Of a stretch of DNA of 34,047 bases, positions 4,352 to 14,681 are shown in pieces. The notes beneath the pieces are model-generated. The model made no database searches and was not told the origin of the DNA. It saw only the letters and a list, made by a program, of their open reading frames with translations. Source of the stretch: a virus; the IMG/VR virus record IMGVR_UViG_3300017727_000064, positions 1 to 34,047 of that record; one strand, 5' to 3'. The position numbers were made by a program, and so were the translations under genes. Within the stretch, counting starts at the first letter, position 1. Each line of letters opens with the position of its first letter.

Positions 4352-4510
4352 TTATTTTATATTTCCACCACGTTTTCTACACTTAGCTATATAACCGCTA
4401 GCATAAGCAGACGGAAATACATCGTACTTAGCTTTTGCTTTTTTATAACAAGCATCTTTTAAAGCTACAGGTGACTCGTACTTATTGAAAGGTGTTTTAC
4501 ATTTTCTCAT
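4352..4510 (-). CDS. small conserved Cys-containing protein with SAYASGYIAKCRK motif (52 aa)
   Basis: A 52-residue ORF from ATG at 4510 to TAA at 4352, overlapping the stop of the 2804-aa gene as ATGA and followed after 1 base by the phosphatase gene. It contains three cysteines (Cys4, Cys21, Cys44) and the segment VFPSAYASGYIAKCRKRGG at residues 31-49. This Pro-Ser-Ala-Tyr-Ala-Ser-Gly ... Cys-Arg-Lys segment recurs in phage proteins, alone or inside larger ones, as I recall it. Function is unknown. The basic, compact, Cys-containing sequence suggests a small nucleic-acid- or metal-binding domain. It would be missed by a 60-codon cutoff. Confidence 0.75.
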   Translation of the reverse strand: MRKCKTPFNKYESPVALKDACYKKAKAKYDVFPSAYASGYIAKCRKRGGNIK

Positions 4511-7500
4511 CTTCTTTTACTTTTATTTCTATTACTACTAGATCTAGAAGACTTAGTTCTACTACTTCTGCTTCTAGAGCTTTGTTTCTTTTCAGATTTT
4601 AATTGCCACTCTGGCCATCCTAATATCATCGCTACACTTTCCCACCACTCTTTTTCTTCTTCAAAAGCTCCAGTAAAATTATCATACTTTAATAAAGCTC
4701 TATCAAGAGGTATGTTTGTTGTTGCTGAAACTACTTTAGCACCTGCTAAATAAGCTGGATTATCAATAGCAAAACCTTTATCAATCATTTCTTGTCTACG
4801 CTTTTTACTATCAAACTGATAAGCAGCTCCTCTAATCTTAGATATTTTACTACTTATAGGTGGAGAAAACTGAAGCAACTTCCAAGTAGCGTCAACATAC
4901 TCTGGTCTAGATCTTTTAGATCTTTCATATATGTCTAATAATAAATTCTTAACAACAGAAGCAGATGCACCACCTATACCTAAACCTCTTAGCATTGAGT
5001 CAGACATACCATTAATAGTTCTATATACTTTCTTGTCATCTTCATCATCGTCTCCATCGCCAGCTCCAATAGCAAACAAGGCATTTTGAAGAGAGTTGAA
5101 TATTAAGTTTTGAACAAAGCCATAATAAGCTATTTTACTTACGTTAGTTTTCCAGTCTCCTCTACCAGCTATTAAATCTTGTATAGATCTTTTTTGTATT
5201 CTAGCATACTGCATTGGTGTGTTAGCAAACATTAATATTAAACGACCATAGTCGCTTGACTGTTGTTGGGATATTTTATCAGGCCTACTTGACTGTTGTG
5301 ATTCTTCTGATATTTCTTTCCACTCTCTTAACGCTTGTTCAGTAGCTTGCTTTTCATCAAGCCCACTGTTTTCCATTAGATCGTTTATTCTATTACGATA
5401 ATAAGTAGCACCACCAGCAGCTATAGCGAAACTATCAGCAAACTGAGTAGGTGCATAACCTTTTTCCATTATGTAAGCTATTGCTCCTTTAGCTTTATTT
5501 TTTGCAGTCTTTGCAGCGTCAGCTATTTCAGATTCAGTTACATTTATTCTTAAACCTTGTCTTCTGTCTTTTAAATAGTCAGAATTCATCAATGTCATAA
5601 AGTCTTTCCAATACTGAGGTTGATTAGCAAATGCAGCGCCAGCTTTTAAAGGATTATTAAAATTCCAATTAACATAGTTTATGGCAGATATAGTTTGAAG
5701 CACTGCAGATCTAGTGTTTAAGAACATTATAGCAGCATTAGATCCATTAATATAGTCTAATATCCTATTGCTAAGTCTAGTTCCTTCTGATGATCTGTTC
5801 TTACCAGTCTTAATACGCTTAATCATATTCTCTAGCGCATCTCTATATTTTCTTCCATACATAGCTTCTAGCTTATTTAAATTAGCTTCACTATATATCT
5901 TATCTATTCTTTGATTAAAATCTTCGTAATACTTATATCTTTTAGTAGTATTGAGAAGCTGTTGTATGTCTGTACTTAATGTTCCAGCAGTCCAACCACT
6001 AGCAGGCTCTGACCAGCCATCTCCTTTAGTTATTTTTAAAAGCTCTTCTGCAAATTCTATTAATTGAGGATCACTTTCAATAATCTCAGTCATTTCTTTT
6101 AAGTCTTCTGCATTTACTCCAGGTATATTAGTTATACCATTTTTATACCACAAGTAAACTCTTACGGCTTGCTCTTTTGTAAATCCTCCAATACTAGTAG
6201 ATTTATTTAAATCTTTAGGTATGTTTAAATCTTTTTTAAGTTTCTTAAAATCATTTATCAACTGTAGTCTATCAGCTCTTAAATCTCCATCAGCTTTTGC
6301 TAAAGGATCTAATAAATGTTTTTTATACCAAGACATTTGTAAATTACCTAATGGACCTTTAGCTAGGGTAGGATATATTAAACCTACTAAATCTTCAGCT
6401 GAATAAGGAATAAAGAATTTAAAGCTATCTTTGTCTTTGCCAAGAAGTCTACCTTTTTCTTTAGATATTTCCTTCTTAAACATAGGATCTTTTTTCATAG
6501 TTATTAGCTGATCAAACTCTTGATCTAACCCTTGTGAAAACTTTAACTTAGCTTGTTGTACTCTAGACTTGACGTCTAATACACTCATGGTATCTTGAAC
6601 AGCTTTAACATTTTGTAAAGCATCATCAGCAAAGTAAAAGTCGTTGTATCCTTCAGCCGCTTTATCTACTAGCCAGTTGGCTTTTGCTTCACCAGTAGAA
6701 TTACCTAAACCTATTATATTTTCTTTTTTAAATTCTAAACCTTCAGACTTTAAAAATTCATATATAGCTTCTTGAGATAGTGGTGACCTGGCTGTTAAAA
6801 CAAATAGATCTTCATTACCTCTAGCATCTTTTATTTTTTTAGCTAAATTAAATAGTGGACCTCGCTTGCCATCTCTTACAATGTCAAAATCTGTAAAATC
6901 CATTACAGCACCTTGTTCAACTAGTTGAGCTCCTTGCTCTGCAAATTGCTCAGCTGTAAGTTCACCCTCTGTTCCATCTGGCTTTGTCCAAAATACTAAA
7001 CTGTTACTTTGAGCTAGTGTATCATCAAAATCAAATACTCTAATTTTCTTTATTGGTTGATCTAACTTGTTAGCTAACCTTAACGCTTCATCTACACCAG
7101 CAGCTTTACTTAAAACATCTTCAGAAGTCATATCGTTAGAAACATTTAAAACTTTTGAATAGCTTAAGTCAGTAACATTTATACCTTTACTAGCTTTTAA
7201 ACCTGGAGCTGTTTTCAAAAACTCATCTAACCTTTGTTTAGCAACCTCTTGTGATATATCTCCATTTAATATTTGATATAGCAAGTCTTGTTGTTTAGAT
7301 ATAACAGATGGTGTTATTTGGTTTTCATCTACATTAATACCAAAGTTTTCAGCTACAGATTTACCATTGCTTTCTATAAGTATATTTGGATCTACACCTT
7401 TGTGTATCTTACCGTTTTCGTCTTCTCTAACTTGACTGTTTACATTTGGGTTAAAATATCTTATCCATATAGATTTAGTTCCCATTAAAATGTCATAAGC

Positions 7501-10500
7501 AAACTCTACAGGAGCATTAGCTGTATAATTAAAAGACTTACCATTTACACCAACTCCTTTTAACATTAAGTCATTAACATATGGTAATAAACCTTGAAAG
7601 TAATTATTTAAAGCACCATCAACATACAGATCGTAGTTACCCTGTAGCATTCTGTTAAATAAAAATTTACCTAAATCACTAGCTGGTTGAGTATGTTCTT
7701 CAACCGGTTTTAAGCCTGTATAATTAGTAAACATTATAGGTGAAAATGTTCTCATCATGTGACCTTGGTAAGCGCTTGTAGAAGAAAGCATAGCTGCTAC
7801 AAAAGGAGCATTACTAATATCATCTTGTATTAACTTATTTAAAACATCTAGTACTTGTTTAAATCCTTTCTCTTTATCTTTTTGTTGCTGCTCAAACTCT
7901 TCAGTACCAAATTTTTCATTAAGCTTTACATAGCTTGCTCGCTTTAAACCTGGTATTATTTTACTAGCAAATTTTATTCCGTCTTCTTGTATTCGATCTA
8001 AAAACGCAGCAACTTGTTTAGAATTTAAAAATGCAAAGTTACCAGCGTAATCTCTTTCACCGGTTTTATTACCATCTAAATCTTTAACAGATAATGTTTT
8101 ACCAGTGAAAGTTCCAGCTGAATTAATAGTAAAAAATTCTTTAGGTACTAATGGCGCTAACACATTAGCTAACCATAACCTGTAAGCTTCTCTACCTTCA
8201 AAGCTTTTCATATTGATTGGATCTAGTCCATTAGCTTTTAATATTTGATTCCAATTTTTCTGCTCTGCAAGAAGTTGTTCTCCAGTACTAGCAGTAAATA
8301 GTTTTCTAGCTTTATCTAGTTTTCTTTGTTGTGCTTTAGTCATTTTGACTCCTTTAGAAAACATCAACTCTGCTTTACCTTCAGATAACTTACTAGGAAC
8401 TGGCAAACCTTTATCTTGTAATGCCTCTCTAACCTCTTGATTTGTAAGCATACGTTCTGTTTGAGAGACTAAAGCTTTTATTCTAGCGCTAGTATTTCTA
8501 TCTGCTAAGTTCATTTCGCCAGCTGGTGTTATTCCAAAAACTTCTTTAAACAAAGCAGGACTTATATTTTTATTCTTTTCAAAAGCAGATAGACCGGCTT
8601 TACTACCAGTCTTAGACATTTTAACTCTATCAGTCTTAGTATAGAAGTTATCCAATAATACTTTTTGTACACCAGTTGAAGTACCTCCAGGCGTTGATCC
8701 TTCAGGTAACATAGTAATTAAAGCTTCCGCATTTTTATTTATAAACTGCTGAGCATTTCTTACATCATCTTTAGTTAAGTTCCCAGGTTTTGGTTTTATA
8801 CCAAACATTTCTTGTACTTCTTGTAAAGCTATATTTTTTAAAGATTTAAAATCTAAATCTGCAATAGGCAGATTATCTACCTCAGCTCTAACTTTTTTAA
8901 CAGCTTGTTCAACGTCACCACTTAATCTGCTCTTAAGTTTAATAGCTCTTTTAGGTTGTACAACAGGAGTATCATCTGCTTCTTCAACAGCTGCTAATCC
9001 CACTTGCTCTGTAACATCGTCAGTAAACTCTTCACCTAAAACTCTTTTAGATGCTTCAATAGCTCTTGAAGGTAAAAACTTATTTATGTAAGCTGCTAAA
9101 GGTACGCCTGACTCTGGATCATAAGCTCTTATTAAATCTAGTATACCACGCTCACCAGTTTCTATTTCATCAGTAAGTAATTGTCTATCAAAACCAGGAG
9201 CTTCACTTCTACGTTGTACTATTTTATTTGTAATAGGCTTAAACTGTTCTATAATATCAAACGCTGCAGCCTCACCTTGTTCATCATATAATCTTTGAAC
9301 CTCTTCACTAGGTCCTTTAGAAAACTTACCATCAGTTTCATCTTCTGGTGGACCAGCTTGTAGATTAAAATCTTGTACAGAACTTTGAAAACTTTTTATG
9401 TAATTAAAAATATCATCTCCAGTTTTTAATGGAATTAAAAAGCCAGTCTTAGGATTGAACTTGTTAGCTAAGTTTTTAAGCATGTATTTCAAACCTGATA
9501 TTTTACTAAAATCATATTTGCTTAAAACACCAGCTGCAACCATATCTCCAAACAAGTTTAATACTTCTTCAACATCTACACCTTGGTTTTTAATAAGATC
9601 ATCATATTGTTCTTTAGTTATCTCTCCATTGCTTAGTTGAGTTTGTAATTCTCTTACGCTAGAAGTATAAGCTTGTTTTCTACTTAAAAAATTATTATAA
9701 TCCTCTTGAGATATTTTTCCTGTTTCTTTATTTATTTCTAATTGTTTTTCGGCTTGCTCTAATCCTAATTGAGCAGACTCAACAACAACACCATCTTTAA
9801 CTATACCAGCTTTTCTATTTTGTATATGTTGTAACTCATGTATAGGAGCAACAGCAGATAACAAAGCTACATATCTATCTAAAGTTGAGCCTATGCTTCT
9901 ACCAATATTATCTTTATATACTATTATATCTTCTCCTATAAACGTAGCATTTTGATTTTTACCTCTAGCTTCTATTAGCTGTTCTGCTCTATCTCCATAA
10001 AGTTCTCTTAATTCTTCAACAGTTGTTTCGTCAGTAATTTCCGTATACTTTTTATTATTCAACTCTTGCGTTACACCTACAATATTATTGTAAAATTCAA
10101 ATAACCCTTGGTTGTAAGCAGCCATAGCAGGATCAAAAGCATCTTTTTGATCTTCAGTAGCTTTTGTTTTTCTAGTATTTAAAAGCTTTTCTATTTGTGT
10201 ATCTACAGATTTATATCCACTAGTAAATTGTTCTTTTTGTTTTTTTATAGCTTTACTTCCAGCATCTGCTCTACCGCCTAACTCTACTAGGTTATTTATA
10301 TATTCTTTTCTTTGACTTATTAAATCAAATAATTCTATTTGTTGTGGTTCACTTAAGGCACTAATTTTTTCTACGTTTTCTATGTTTCTAAAAGCGGCTC
10401 GTTCTAATATTAAATCTTGTTCAGCTTTTAATATTTTCTTTTCTTTTTTAGATCTTTTAGTACCATCATTTAAAGCTGTTTCTATTTCTATTAACCTGTC

Positions 10501-12921
10501 AAAGTTAGCTTTTTCAAATTGATAATCATTTTTAGTTTTAACATTATCTCCTAGCATAGCATACAAATTGCTACCAACAGTAGGTCCTTGTATAGCTAAA
10601 CTAGTTAAACCAACATTAAAAGCAAACTCAGCGTTTATGCCATCTAGTATAGATTTGTTTTCACCTAGTATGTATATGTCTGAAAGGTTGTTACCTATTT
10701 GAGCCATAGTTTCTTCTGCTAGTTCAATTCCACCAGCATTTATACCTAAGTTTAACCCTTGATACATAGCTTTTTTAAATGCTCTAGATCCTACAGGAGC
10801 AGCTATTCTATTCAAGTTTTTCATATAGCGCAATGTACCTATACGTTCGCTGTACATGTCTACAGATCCAGAAATTAATTGCGATCCTGCTTTTTGAAGT
10901 ATATTAAGATCTTTAACTCTATTAAGTTCTTCTATTTGATTTTTAGTTTCAGCTATTTCAAAAGGACTTAATAAACCAGAGTCTAACTTTTTTTCTAGTT
11001 CTACTATAGCTTTAGGTGCGTTACGTTGTGCAATGTTTATTTCTGAACCTTTTAAACCGTAGCTCATATTAAAAAATATACCTTGAGCAATTTTACTAGC
11101 TCTAGCTTGAGCTACGTTAGCTTTAGCCTGCAATTTAAATCTTTCAGCTCCAGAAGCTTTGTTGATAGATTTTTTACTAGGACTAGACATTTTACCTCCA
11201 GCTCTAGTCATTAAAACTGTAGCAATACTAGGCATACCTTCTGCAAAGCTTTGGCTAAGGTAACCGCTTAAAGCTCCAGCATCCCAAGCATCACTCATTG
11301 AAGGTTTAGGCGCCATTGCTACAGCCATCTCTTGCTGTAAGCTCTCGTTGTAATCTAAAGCTACGCCTTCTACTTTATTTAAAAAACTAGATAAAGCAGT
11401 AGCATCTTCTTCACCTATAGTCTTGTCTATAACCTCACCTACCATTCCTAATGTAGTTCCAACTGTAGATGCTGTAGCTCCTAGAAACGATTGTTCCATA
11501 CTTAAAATAGCTTTATCTAAAGAAGAAAAGTTTTTAGTAGCAAGCTCTAAGCTCAAAGATACATCTCCTAGTTCGTTAGAATCTGCTAGTAAAGAATCAC
11601 GTTCTTTATTCCAAGCTATAATATCTTCAGCTAGCTTTTCTCTTTTATCTAATAAACCACTAGCTTTGTACTCATCAATAACACCATTGTAAGATGTTAA
11701 TAAGTCATTATACTCTTTCTTAATAGACTCAGGAGAATCATTGCTAATTCCATTTTTGTCCATTACATCTAGCTGCCTTTGTATTTCTTCTGCTTGGCTA
11801 TTTAACTCTACAAATTGTTCATTATTATCTAACTCATCTTGCTGCTCCTGTATAGACTTCATTTTTTTTGAAATATCACTAGATCTAAGCTGTATATTTT
11901 TAGCTTGTAAATCCATTAAGCTAGGATTATTAGACAAGTCCATAACACTTTTAAAGTCTAAACCTCCTTCAACTTGATCAGCAAGTAAAGCTGTTAATTT
12001 ATTTCTATCTGTTTGAGTTAAATCTTTATTAGCATGGTAGAACGCGTTAAGTTTGTCTGACTTAACTTTGTTTAGTGTTTGAGTTTTTAATTGATCAGAT
12101 GCTTTATCTATTACACTATCGCTTATTTCTCCAGTTTCTTTGTAGTGTTTTACTTCTTGATAAACTTGATCAGACATCCAAGCAGGCTTTTCATCATCTA
12201 TAAATAACTTGTCTACAGCATTAGTACCCACAAGTCGATCAAGTCTCTCCATTGGTGTTGGAGCATCTGGCAAATTTACCGTTTCTAAATTTAATTTTTC
12301 TCCCTCTGAAGTAGGTTCACTTAAATCTTCTTCTATAAAGTTAGCAAGCAAAGTTTTCTTATATTCTTCGTCAGACTCGTTTATATTAGACAACGTTTGT
12401 CTATACTCTTCTACTAAAGGTTTTAATTTGGCAGCTGTTTCTGGTTCTCTAAACTCAAACTGATCTACTGGACTTAACTTGTCATACCTATCTTGTTCAT
12501 GTTTTATTTCTGCAGCTACTAAAGGATTTTCTAAATCTTGCTGTATTGCGTTTATATTATAAACAGGTTGTACAACTTGATCAGCAACCATTGATATTTC
12601 CTCAGGTGGTAAGAAGCCACTTTCCTCGTCTTTGTTGTCTATAGCTTCAAACATTGTCTTAGCTAAATCCATATCTGGCTCTGGAAGTTTGTCAGCAGCG
12701 GCTGAATTAATACGATCTTCTTTTCCAGGTACTATGTTAAATAAATCTTCCATCATTTGCTCTGAAGATGGAACATTATAATACTCAGATAAACCTTCTC
12801 TAACCTTTTCTAATACGTCAGGATTCTGTATGTCTTGTACAAATTTTTCAAAGTCTGGTAAGCTAAAATGCTGAACAGCTTTATTGTATAAAGATCTTAA
12901 TCGTTGTTCGTTTGGACTCAT
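4507..12921 (-). CDS. giant polyvalent internal/ejection virion protein with zincin-like, sigma-like and HAD phosphatase domains (2804 aa)
   Basis: Multi-domain protein probably carried in the virion and ejected with DNA. In order: helical N terminus (FEKFVQDIQNP); coiled coils about 330-450; weakly hydrophobic region about 480-780; HELQH at 1028-1032, an HExxH zinc-protease-type site, with an EEVLNLFGD helix beyond it; FSKG at 1200; sigma-70 region-2-like segment 1208-1308; FSKG at 1521; EEHTQP segment; HAD phosphatase with DFDDTL 1964-1969, Thr2043, Lys2080 and Asp2099/Asp2100; FSQG at 2128; conserved helical C-terminal region about 2390-2620 like those of phage large polyvalent proteins; Ser/Arg/Lys-rich tail. 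No transglycosylase motif was seen. It overlaps the 545-aa gene by 1 base and the 52-aa gene by 4. The arrangement after two smaller internal proteins mirrors T7 gp14-gp15-gp16 in order. Enzyme activity of each module is unproven. Confidence 0.85.
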   Translation of the reverse strand: MSPNEQRLRSLYNKAVQHFSLPDFEKFVQDIQNPDVLEKVREGLSEYYNVPSSEQMMEDLFNIVPGKEDRINSAAADKLPEPDMDLAKTMFEAIDNKDEESGFLPPEEISMVADQVVQPVYNINAIQQDLENPLVAAEIKHEQDRYDKLSPVDQFEFREPETAAKLKPLVEEYRQTLSNINESDEEYKKTLLANFIEEDLSEPTSEGEKLNLETVNLPDAPTPMERLDRLVGTNAVDKLFIDDEKPAWMSDQVYQEVKHYKETGEISDSVIDKASDQLKTQTLNKVKSDKLNAFYHANKDLTQTDRNKLTALLADQVEGGLDFKSVMDLSNNPSLMDLQAKNIQLRSSDISKKMKSIQEQQDELDNNEQFVELNSQAEEIQRQLDVMDKNGISNDSPESIKKEYNDLLTSYNGVIDEYKASGLLDKREKLAEDIIAWNKERDSLLADSNELGDVSLSLELATKNFSSLDKAILSMEQSFLGATASTVGTTLGMVGEVIDKTIGEEDATALSSFLNKVEGVALDYNESLQQEMAVAMAPKPSMSDAWDAGALSGYLSQSFAEGMPSIATVLMTRAGGKMSSPSKKSINKASGAERFKLQAKANVAQARASKIAQGIFFNMSYGLKGSEINIAQRNAPKAIVELEKKLDSGLLSPFEIAETKNQIEELNRVKDLNILQKAGSQLISGSVDMYSERIGTLRYMKNLNRIAAPVGSRAFKKAMYQGLNLGINAGGIELAEETMAQIGNNLSDIYILGENKSILDGINAEFAFNVGLTSLAIQGPTVGSNLYAMLGDNVKTKNDYQFEKANFDRLIEIETALNDGTKRSKKEKKILKAEQDLILERAAFRNIENVEKISALSEPQQIELFDLISQRKEYINNLVELGGRADAGSKAIKKQKEQFTSGYKSVDTQIEKLLNTRKTKATEDQKDAFDPAMAAYNQGLFEFYNNIVGVTQELNNKKYTEITDETTVEELRELYGDRAEQLIEARGKNQNATFIGEDIIVYKDNIGRSIGSTLDRYVALLSAVAPIHELQHIQNRKAGIVKDGVVVESAQLGLEQAEKQLEINKETGKISQEDYNNFLSRKQAYTSSVRELQTQLSNGEITKEQYDDLIKNQGVDVEEVLNLFGDMVAAGVLSKYDFSKISGLKYMLKNLANKFNPKTGFLIPLKTGDDIFNYIKSFQSSVQDFNLQAGPPEDETDGKFSKGPSEEVQRLYDEQGEAAAFDIIEQFKPITNKIVQRRSEAPGFDRQLLTDEIETGERGILDLIRAYDPESGVPLAAYINKFLPSRAIEASKRVLGEEFTDDVTEQVGLAAVEEADDTPVVQPKRAIKLKSRLSGDVEQAVKKVRAEVDNLPIADLDFKSLKNIALQEVQEMFGIKPKPGNLTKDDVRNAQQFINKNAEALITMLPEGSTPGGTSTGVQKVLLDNFYTKTDRVKMSKTGSKAGLSAFEKNKNISPALFKEVFGITPAGEMNLADRNTSARIKALVSQTERMLTNQEVREALQDKGLPVPSKLSEGKAELMFSKGVKMTKAQQRKLDKARKLFTASTGEQLLAEQKNWNQILKANGLDPINMKSFEGREAYRLWLANVLAPLVPKEFFTINSAGTFTGKTLSVKDLDGNKTGERDYAGNFAFLNSKQVAAFLDRIQEDGIKFASKIIPGLKRASYVKLNEKFGTEEFEQQQKDKEKGFKQVLDVLNKLIQDDISNAPFVAAMLSSTSAYQGHMMRTFSPIMFTNYTGLKPVEEHTQPASDLGKFLFNRMLQGNYDLYVDGALNNYFQGLLPYVNDLMLKGVGVNGKSFNYTANAPVEFAYDILMGTKSIWIRYFNPNVNSQVREDENGKIHKGVDPNILIESNGKSVAENFGINVDENQITPSVISKQQDLLYQILNGDISQEVAKQRLDEFLKTAPGLKASKGINVTDLSYSKVLNVSNDMTSEDVLSKAAGVDEALRLANKLDQPIKKIRVFDFDDTLAQSNSLVFWTKPDGTEGELTAEQFAEQGAQLVEQGAVMDFTDFDIVRDGKRGPLFNLAKKIKDARGNEDLFVLTARSPLSQEAIYEFLKSEGLEFKKENIIGLGNSTGEAKANWLVDKAAEGYNDFYFADDALQNVKAVQDTMSVLDVKSRVQQAKLKFSQGLDQEFDQLITMKKDPMFKKEISKEKGRLLGKDKDSFKFFIPYSAEDLVGLIYPTLAKGPLGNLQMSWYKKHLLDPLAKADGDLRADRLQLINDFKKLKKDLNIPKDLNKSTSIGGFTKEQAVRVYLWYKNGITNIPGVNAEDLKEMTEIIESDPQLIEFAEELLKITKGDGWSEPASGWTAGTLSTDIQQLLNTTKRYKYYEDFNQRIDKIYSEANLNKLEAMYGRKYRDALENMIKRIKTGKNRSSEGTRLSNRILDYINGSNAAIMFLNTRSAVLQTISAINYVNWNFNNPLKAGAAFANQPQYWKDFMTLMNSDYLKDRRQGLRINVTESEIADAAKTAKNKAKGAIAYIMEKGYAPTQFADSFAIAAGGATYYRNRINDLMENSGLDEKQATEQALREWKEISEESQQSSRPDKISQQQSSDYGRLILMFANTPMQYARIQKRSIQDLIAGRGDWKTNVSKIAYYGFVQNLIFNSLQNALFAIGAGDGDDDEDDKKVYRTINGMSDSMLRGLGIGGASASVVKNLLLDIYERSKRSRPEYVDATWKLLQFSPPISSKISKIRGAAYQFDSKKRRQEMIDKGFAIDNPAYLAGAKVVSATTNIPLDRALLKYDNFTGAFEEEKEWWESVAMILGWPEWQLKSEKKQSSRSRSSRTKSSRSSSNRNKSKRR

Positions 12922-14558
12922 TAATATAGAGTTGGTTTATTGTTATTTGATTTGTTTTGATATTGACTATACTTAGATTTAAAATCTAGATATTCTTGAT
13001 CCATCTTTTTAATCTCTCTAATAGCTGTTAAAAGTTGACCTGCTGTTGATACGAAGCCATAATTATCATCATCGCCTATTGACCCATATCCCTGTAACTG
13101 CGCTAGCCTTTTTCTTTCAGCATCAAAATCAACTTCCTCTCCGCTATCAACTCTATTTGTTATATCTTTTATTTCTTTGTCTAAGAACTCTTCATCTTTC
13201 ATTAAAGCTTTGTAAGTCTTTATATCATTAGGGCTATATATAGTAGCAGCAGAAAAACCTTTATCAAAGTCTACTACTTCAGATCCTGCATTTTCAGAGT
13301 CTGTAGGCTCAGTAACTATTTTGTTTTTAGTTAATAGTTTACCAATACCATCAGAATCTACATTATCGTTAAATGCTTTAAGTGCTATAAACTTCTTAGC
13401 TATTTGATCTTGAGTATTTGATAAAGCTGTTTTTTGCTCAAGCGATAAGTTAGCAGGTGCCTCATGCCATGAAGAGTTTTCAAGTTCGTTCATACTAGTT
13501 AAACCCATTGATGACAACCACTCTTGTTCGGTTAAGCCAGAGTCTTCAATTAACCTAGCAGAAATTTCTTGTATAGACATACCATTGCCATTGCTAGCTT
13601 CTGCATTATCAGGAATATCATCTTGAAAAACAGATAACATTCTTTTATCATCTGACATTATAGTTTGTGTCATAGGACTATTTTCCATATCAATTAATAG
13701 CTGTTCTCTTTGCCCAGGTATCATTGTTTGATATTCATATTCGTATCCTTCTGGTATGTTCTCTATAGTTTGACCTGGATTAAAAGGATCTGGACTACCA
13801 GCTCTTAATTTTATAGTTTCAAAATAAGGGCTAGGTCCATCAGGATTACTAGTTTTATCTGCCAATGTAGTTGTTAATTGTGATATGTCTACTTTTTGAT
13901 TAAAAAGACTTTTTCCTTGGTTAGCCATAGCTATTAGCTCATCTCCGTTTAACATAGAAGCATTACCAGTCTTCATATCTTCGCTAAGTGAAAACTCAGC
14001 TTCTCCTTTTACAGCATCATTTGGTTTAAAGAAATATATATTACCACCTCTTTCTGCTATTTGAATATCTCCACCTTGCATAAAAGTACCTAACATATCT
14101 TTGTTCTGCATAGACCCAGTGGAAGATACATTATTATTTTTCAAATTTTCACCATAGCTTGCTGTTTCTTGAGCTATATAACCAAACATAGTTTGAAACT
14201 TAGGAACTAATCCTTTTATTTTAGCTAAAGCCATGTTGCCTTCTTGTCTAGATATTTCACCAGATTGCATTCTATTTTTTACATCAAAGTATTCATCAAC
14301 TTTACCATTCCAAAAACTAACTAAATTATTATCTAACAAAGGATCTCCTGAAGTGCCGAACTTGTTAGCCATGCTATACATGCTCTGCATTTCATTATCT
14401 ACTAATTCTTGTTGCTTTCTAACTTGTTCTTTTTGTTTGATAACATTATTAGTCATTTGCTGAACACCCTGCATCATGGTGTCAGTTATTCGACTAGCTC
14501 CTTTGAGCATTACATCAAATCTTTTATCTACTATTCTTCTTGGGTTTGTATAACTCAT
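12921..14558 (-). CDS. probable internal virion / ejection protein (545 aa)
   Basis: No catalytic motif is recognised. The N-terminal 75 residues (RRIVDKRFDVMLKGASRI, then Gln/Lys-rich helices) form a likely coiled coil, followed by a short-helix region with Met/Gln-rich composition, a central part with several turns of beta (GGNIYFFKPND), a Thr/Asp/Glu-rich region and a final helical segment ending in Asn/Lys repeats. It sits between a small hydrophobic-ended virion protein and the giant polyvalent protein, the place of T7 gp15 in T7-like phages, so an inner-core or ejected protein is the best guess. Its stop overlaps the start of the giant gene as TAATG, suggesting coupled translation and a fixed ratio. 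The start lies 10 bases after the -1 frame stop of the preceding gene, with an A-rich leader and no Shine-Dalgarno. Confidence 0.7.
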   Translation of the reverse strand: MSYTNPRRIVDKRFDVMLKGASRITDTMMQGVQQMTNNVIKQKEQVRKQQELVDNEMQSMYSMANKFGTSGDPLLDNNLVSFWNGKVDEYFDVKNRMQSGEISRQEGNMALAKIKGLVPKFQTMFGYIAQETASYGENLKNNNVSSTGSMQNKDMLGTFMQGGDIQIAERGGNIYFFKPNDAVKGEAEFSLSEDMKTGNASMLNGDELIAMANQGKSLFNQKVDISQLTTTLADKTSNPDGPSPYFETIKLRAGSPDPFNPGQTIENIPEGYEYEYQTMIPGQREQLLIDMENSPMTQTIMSDDKRMLSVFQDDIPDNAEASNGNGMSIQEISARLIEDSGLTEQEWLSSMGLTSMNELENSSWHEAPANLSLEQKTALSNTQDQIAKKFIALKAFNDNVDSDGIGKLLTKNKIVTEPTDSENAGSEVVDFDKGFSAATIYSPNDIKTYKALMKDEEFLDKEIKDITNRVDSGEEVDFDAERKRLAQLQGYGSIGDDDNYGFVSTAGQLLTAIREIKKMDQEYLDFKSKYSQYQNKSNNNKPTLY

Positions 14559-14568
14559 AATATTTTTT

Positions 14569-14664
14569 TTAACTTAAACCGTACATTGGACTATTTGAAT
14601 CAAACTTATCAAATTCATTATCAGCAATAATAGGAGTATTATCCACGCCGCTTCCGGCTACTCC
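14569..14664 (-). other. -1 frame C-terminal extension of the 236-aa protein (31 codons)
   Basis: After a -1 slip at the heptamer 14664-14670, the frame continues for 31 residues to TAA at 14569-14571, starting GVAGSGVDNTPIIADNEF and ending SPMYGLS. It fills the otherwise unexplained gap between the 236-aa stop and the next start. No ATG opens this frame; a GTG at 14646 could start a 25-residue peptide instead. The extended product would be 266 residues. A missing A in the homopolymer of the assembly would give the same fusion without frameshifting. Confidence 0.55.
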
Positions 14665-14681
14665 TTTTTTCCCATTACTCC
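14647..14681 (-). promoter_or_regulatory. candidate programmed -1 ribosomal frameshift signal
   Basis: On the - strand: GGAG (14678-14681), then 7 bases, then the slippery heptamer A AAA AAG in the correct frame (14664-14670), then GAG TAG in zero frame, then a GC-only 4-bp stem GCCG-GAAG-CGGC (14647-14658) starting 5 bases after the heptamer. Heptamer, upstream Shine-Dalgarno-like stimulator and spacer length match the Escherichia coli dnaX type of signal. The stem is short, which is the weakest element. Confidence 0.6.

Follow-up and report, generated by a model that had tools for sequence, protein, structure and literature searches.

Does the gene P0001, which lies in a minus-strand run of virion genes (including those for terminase, portal and the major structural protein), end at its TAG codon in all of its products, or is part of the product extended in the -1 frame by programmed ribosomal frameshifting, as the earlier note proposed? 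The analysis was performed on the entire virus record of 34,047 bases (hereafter, the window) and on the ends of related genes from other contigs, which are designated by L numbers; the window itself equals L008 and was counted as L008.

The gene end in the window

The positions of the features are given in Table 1. The 3' end of P0001 reads ATG GGA AAA AAG GAG TAG, and the elements described in the earlier note (heptamer, stop codon, hairpin, 31-codon -1 frame and distance to the next gene) were all found on the minus strand. The -1 frame translates as GVAGSGVDNTPIIADNEFDKFDSNSPMYGLS, so that the predicted frameshift product has 266 aa, and the tryptic peptide predicted from the extension is GVAGSGVDNTPIIADNEFDK.

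Table 1. Positions of the features at the 3' end of P0001 in the window
Feature	Position	Strand	Basis
0-frame gene P0001, 236 aa, short form of a structural-type phage protein	14658..15368	(-)	homologues found
GGAG, 7-nt spacer before the heptamer; probably outside the signal	14678..14681	(-)	not conserved
Second heptamer G GGA AAA, overlapping, one codon upstream	14667-14673	(-)	sequence
Slippery heptamer A AAA AAG, in frame	14664..14670	(-)	place conserved, sequence varying in relatives
0-frame stop TAG, after the heptamer and GAG	14658..14660	(-)	sequence
Hairpin GCCG-GAAG-CGGC, 5-nt spacer from the heptamer	14647..14658	(-)	stem tests, covariation, folding
-1 frame extension, 31 codons (14664-14572) and TAA (14571-14569)	14569..14664	(-)	open, partly conserved in L008, L009, L018
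Next gene, 545 aa; ATG at 14558, 10 nt past the -1 stop	12921..14558	(-)	sequence

Only one canonical heptamer in the 15 window genes scanned, A AAA AAG, both lies within five codons of a stop codon and is followed, at a distance of 4-6 nt, by a stem of 4 bp or more. The stem alone was calculated to have -5.7 kcal/mol, the folding z-score was -0.45 over 44 nt, and a -1 frame as open as that of the window (L008, same sequence) had a P of about 0.085 in shuffles. The hairpin is written partly in codons that are scarce in the window (GCC, 5.7% of Ala; GGC, 10.6% of Gly; AGC, 12.7% of Ser); GGA, which it also contains, is not scarce (29% of Gly). Taken alone, the folding and the open frame of the window are unimpressive, and the case is built on the relatives.

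With respect to the surroundings, the major structural (capsid-type) protein of the window matches 85 phage records, all at less than 60% identity (Flavobacterium, 68; Cellulophaga, 15; Maribacter, 1); the relatives found for this protein are phages recorded from Flavobacteriia. The minus-strand region 4507-12921 encodes a giant protein of 2804 aa, which has a PHROG polynucleotide-kinase match at residues 1954-2151 and, by eye, recurring FSKG/FSQG motifs.

Slip sites, stems and extensions in relatives

Relatives were gathered by protein and motif scans of IMG/VR and by one scan of GTDB genomes, and the two sets of relatives used were the best 80 of 172 and the best 80 of at least 441 matches. 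The resulting gene-end table had 191 rows, from which 20 identical contexts and 6 rows running off contig ends were removed to leave 165 distinct loci, 161 of them with a measured gap to the next gene. Since the search profiles held extension-bearing members, the frequencies given below are valid for this sample only. The hairpin-motif scan yielded 29 stretches, consisting of 5 on known contigs, 3 new relatives (L044, L047, L050) and 21 that were unrelated by context; a second motif scan yielded 13 stretches, of which 6 were new and all 6 unrelated. L047 was found by the hairpin-motif scan alone, and the contigs of L078 and L079 were first met there. In the GTDB genome scan, 80 stretches fitted the pattern and 1 encodes a relative (L077, on a contig of a Flavobacteriaceae MAG), which is without the extension. 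No match was obtained by tblastn among INPHARED phages for P0001, its 545-aa neighbour or L128. The P0001 family is known almost only from environmental DNA.

The distance from the stop codon to the next ATG was bimodal, being -11 to 41 nt at 135 of the 161 gene ends and 48 to 164 nt at the other 26. The former leave no room for an extension, and most of the sampled family lacks one. Where the gap was 60 nt or longer (24/161 loci), an open frame came to within 35 nt of the next ATG; it was the -1 frame in 21 loci and the +1 frame in 3, the near-copies L141 and L144 among the latter. Of the 21, two were also open in the +1 frame, and six loci were open in frame 0 past the stop codon. For the analyses below, 22 loci (the -1 loci) were picked by eye from the gene-end table, including L111 and L189, whose contigs end before the next gene, and excluding L012. 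When log10 P for the open -1 frame was added up over these 22 loci, the total was -20.7, with kinship among the loci ignored. The gene end of L012 has a 13-codon -1 frame ending GGNNTNDSRPAF and no heptamer; this frame is perhaps a remnant of an extension.

A canonical heptamer within the last five codons was found in 21 of the 30 loci with a long gap (45 nt or more, or unknown) and in 8 of the 135 with a short gap (Fisher p 1.9e-13, kinship among loci ignored), and the background inside the family genes was 46 in-frame canonical heptamers in 23,760 codon positions. The commonest was G GGA AAG (10/21: L009, L047, L120, L128, L132, L172, L189, L219, L225, L235), and the others were G GGA AAC (L089, L203), G GGA AAT (L078, L079, L110, L118), A AAA AAG (L008, the window; L111), A AAA AAC (L134), C CCG GGG (L011) and T TTG GGG (L102). 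The slip site of L018 is non-canonical (T TCA AAG TAG), and neither L012 nor the +1 loci have a canonical heptamer. Genes with a long gap often end Gly-Lys-stop. In passages of a review (PMC5009743), G_GGA_AAG is described as highly shift-prone, and spacers of 5-9 nt as those used in many studies.

The stem was searched as a contiguous one of at least 4 bp with a score of at least 10, and controls were measured from the last sense codon. In 18 of the 22 -1 loci, a 4-6-bp stem begins 4-6 nt past the slip site, versus 3 of the 135 short-gap controls; when the loci from the hairpin scan (L047, L078, L079) were omitted, 15 of 19 had one. The stem sequences vary, GCCG/CGGC, ACCG/CGGU, GCCC/GGGC, GCCCA/UGGGC, GGGCC/GGCCC and AACCCC/GGGGUU being among them. 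In L118 and L134 no stem was found, in L011 it starts 2 nt past the heptamer and thus falls outside the 4-6-nt test, and L102 and L110 have weak stems, with scores of 9 and 10, respectively. Covariation was evaluated in 12 loci selected for tetraloops, into which L011 entered with its 2-nt spacer: 48 of 48 cells were paired, substitutions on both sides are seen in all 4 pairs, and the covariation score was 0.848 versus 0.263 in shuffles, none of the 500 shuffles equalling it. Further pair types were no more numerous in this set than in shuffles (182/500 reach the count). The free-energy z-score was below -2 in 6 of the 22 loci and above -2 in 16.

A quick tree was reconstructed from the protein core without the tails, the proteins being taken from the preceding stop codon with no start chosen. 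At least 17 changes of the frameshift state were required on it, a number that is approximate because some branches are long. On the tree, heptamer and gap changed together in about 10 of 12 independent supported pairs and in the opposite direction in none (median p 0.002); for hairpin and gap, about 9 pairs had the same direction and 1 the opposite (median p 0.02, range to 0.07). The association between heptamer and hairpin was marginal (median p 0.04, range to 0.18).

The extensions themselves are similar in part. Those of L008 and L018 agree at 72% of 29 residues, and conserved stretches are common to L203 and L219 and to L089 and L120. The pN/pS of the -1 frame was 0.46, 0.54 and 0.74 in three close pairs and 0.89-1.03 in three pairs with L011, with that of alternative frames being as low as 0.51; given these mixed values, selection on the extension peptide is indicated weakly by this measure. 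The -1 extension of L118 matches the +1 extension of L141 and L144 (82% of 17 residues), where the site reads GCC TTT GGG TAA C. A +1 frameshift at TTT GGG TAA C is possible in L141, L144 and L152, with extensions of 21-39 codons; L144 is a near-copy of L141 (1 base in 6,486) and L155 of L152. Moreover, the extension of L134 is fused in frame 0 in L130, and that of L172 likewise in L167.

Seven frame-0 tails (L222, L234, L129, L199, L242, L198, L027) look alike by eye. In a Pfam scan of L222, L242 and L027, the tails of the first two matched the Peptidase_S74 chaperone-of-endosialidase model just below the cutoff (E 0.00027 and 0.0037, respectively) and that of L027 gave no such match; the match of L222 to PHROG 6121 'virion structural protein' was lost once the tail was removed. 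The chaperone-of-endosialidase (S74) domain is found in tail spikes and fibres, and an S74-like fused tail is odd on an internal protein.

Taken together, the relatives often keep a heptamer and an extension where the gene end leaves room for one, and they have different heptamers and hairpins at the same place, an open -1 frame and compensatory changes in the stem. The homologues thus give strong support to the frameshift claim of the earlier note, and the 3' end of the gene very probably carries a real, conserved programmed -1 ribosomal frameshift signal.

The parallel with dnaX drawn in the earlier note stands for A AAA AAG and the downstream stem and fails for the upstream Shine-Dalgarno stimulator, which is not conserved. 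When the 20 nt upstream were scanned, a Shine-Dalgarno-like tetramer or longer was found in 7 of the 22 -1 loci, so that GGAG is not retained as a stimulator, and no such motif was found before the 14 window minus-strand gene starts inspected. Because these motifs are sparse at the loci and absent at the 14 starts, a stimulator of the dnaX type is doubtful. The leaders of the window genes are A/T-rich; A/T-rich leaders without a Shine-Dalgarno sequence are expected for a Bacteroidota host.

Other origins of the open frame and the proposed mechanism

The same layout could arise without any programmed event from an originally continuous gene of 266 codons, through an error in sequencing or assembly or through the recent mutation of one base, and the window does have a run of A. 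A further case is the pair L134 and L130, split and fused, respectively, whose junctions are told apart by one A within a run; this pair alone could therefore reflect an error or slippage of RNA polymerase. However, long homopolymers are absent from the site in 18 of the 21 relatives with a heptamer (e.g., GGGAAAG, CCCGGGG), the phase is still -1 in 21 of the 24 loci with a gap of 60 nt or longer, and random indels would not produce heptamers and stems. Near-identical contigs also agree (the window with L001, and L002 with L003). The second IMG/VR contig, L001, aligns with the window over 10,708 bp with 2 mismatches and 0 gaps and has the same six A, which makes a miscounted homopolymer unlikely in the window; the seven-A copy with a continuous frame envisaged in the earlier note was not seen among the contigs. 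We thus consider this explanation very improbable.

Slippage of RNA polymerase on the A run, by which some mRNAs would come to be in the other frame, is conceivable at A6 of the window and A9 of L134. It is given no greater probability, as the commonest site, G GGA AAG (10/21), has runs of three bases only and a stem at a nearly fixed distance suits ribosomal slippage.

Equally improbable is re-initiation near the stop codon, by which the -1 frame would be translated as a small ORF of its own. In 11 of the 22 loci, the -1 frame does have an ATG, GTG or TTG close to the junction, and in the window a GTG is located 14 nt past the first base of the stop codon; however, the other half of the loci (11/22) have no start in the interval from the upstream -1 stop to about 21 nt beyond the junction, the heptamers would be left unexplained, and two of the extensions are fused to the upstream protein in relatives.

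Least probable is a neutral, untranslated and decaying remnant of an ancestral fused tail, for which the frequent changes of state (17 steps on the tree), the relatives with fused tails and the pN/pS near 1 in the comparisons with L011 would speak, but under which one would not expect that all 24 long-gap loci are open in the -1 or +1 frame, that the extension ends are conserved, that the stem covaries and that the heptamer is tied to the gap on the tree.

Under programmed frameshifting, the preferred explanation, most ribosomes would reach the stop codon next to the slip site and end translation there, releasing the short protein of 236 aa. The hairpin 5 nt downstream would hold the ribosome with A AAA AAG in its P and A sites, and a fraction of the ribosomes would slip back by one base and add about 30 residues, to give 266 aa. 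A single structural-type phage protein would then be made as a mixture of short subunits and tailed ones. That slippage occurs, that the short form is the major one, the efficiency of slippage, and the role of the tailed fraction in the virion or in assembly are points that we infer.

In the relatives, the signal was repeatedly retained, rebuilt or lost, so that the dose of the tail probably matters; our best guess is that an internal or ejection-type protein has, at its C-terminus, a flexible contact that is dosed in this way. We propose tentatively, at somewhat less than an even chance, that by slippage these phages, a large and mostly uncultured group, set how many internal or ejection-type subunits carry a swappable tail, with lineages toggling between the states; in that reading, the toggling (no tail, -1, +1, fusion) and the re-invented slip site and hairpin would mean that the tail dose itself is under selection.

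The protein and comparison with known systems

P0001 is called structural-type on account of gene order. Its designation as an ejection protein in the earlier note had been a guess from the same source and was not supported by the searches: P0001 had no PHROG match and a sub-threshold Pfam match only, none of the searches made linked it to a family of coat or major tail proteins, and the family profile gave no significant sequence match in the PDB. The predicted structure was helical and of low confidence (mean pLDDT 66, pTM 0.25), and Foldseek with this model returned a single meaningless hit (E 2.6). A weak hint was obtained from L132 versus PHROG 'DNA ejection protein' (E 0.096). We accordingly treat an ejection protein as a hypothesis for P0001, one suggested by the place of the gene; the fixed ratio of two forms that, in the earlier note, could set the composition of the ejected core would be hypothetical likewise. 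When 15 window proteins were scanned, none of their matches was a tape measure protein.

Genes for ejection proteins of the T7 gp14 type lie within the virion gene block. P0001 likewise lies in such a block and has a helical, low-confidence model; homology to T7 gp14 was not detectable (hhalign probability 0.3%). Homology to the positional counterparts in Manatee Spring phage (1%), elemo phage (gp20, 18%) and Panino (24%) was not established either, and in these three phages the next annotated gene is 3 nt away or less, or overlaps.

Among tailed phages, the known cases of frameshifting mainly concern tail chaperones and extensions of coat or tail proteins. The E. coli dnaX signal has an upstream Shine-Dalgarno stimulator and a larger stem, and csoS2 has two C-terminal forms. 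Neither for the P0001 family nor for an internal virion protein or ejection protein was a report of frameshifting found in the open-licence literature, among the titles and abstracts of the matches listed. Phage structural genes with a frameshifted C-terminal extension are known already; what sets the present case apart is the P0001 family and the swapping of slip site, stem and direction. With at least 17 changes of state, a change of direction with the same extension, and fused versions, the family is a natural experiment on the origin of recoding signals and on the effect of a partial C-terminal tail. It also supplies exact peptides to look for, and the C-terminus of these proteins would be missed by ordinary gene calling.

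In dnaX, A AAA AAG is combined with a downstream stem as in the window. For some bacteria, passages of the review cited above (PMC5009743) describe a short dnaX product that terminates at the site, like that of the window. Unlike dnaX, the P0001 family has no conserved Shine-Dalgarno stimulator and a much smaller stem, and the protein is not a polymerase subunit. The -1 frameshift of carboxysome csoS2, according to the same source (PMC5009743), has a 3' stem loop and apparently no 5' Shine-Dalgarno stimulator and concerns a protein of a large assembly, as here; unlike P0001, csoS2 is a cellular gene and its protein is unrelated.

Closer in kind are the frameshifts of lambda gpG/gpGT and other tail assembly chaperones, for which passages of the review (PMC5009743) describe the same class of heptamer as in the P0001 family, a frameshift conserved though the ORF sequences are not, and a direction that varies between phages. 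The P0001 family differs from lambda G/GT in the protein family and gene neighbourhood, in a tail of about 13-49 residues with no T domain, and in a short stem at a nearly fixed distance. The major coat protein of T3 and T7 and the Ig-like extensions are covered in the same passages (PMC5009743) as cases in which a fraction of a virion protein is extended at the C-terminus, as is proposed here; P0001 differs from the T3/T7 coat protein in having no match to a coat or major tail family. Among the phage head and tail proteins with Ig-like extensions, -1, +1 and in-frame solutions are described there as interchanging (PMC5009743), and this interchange is common to those phages and the P0001 family.
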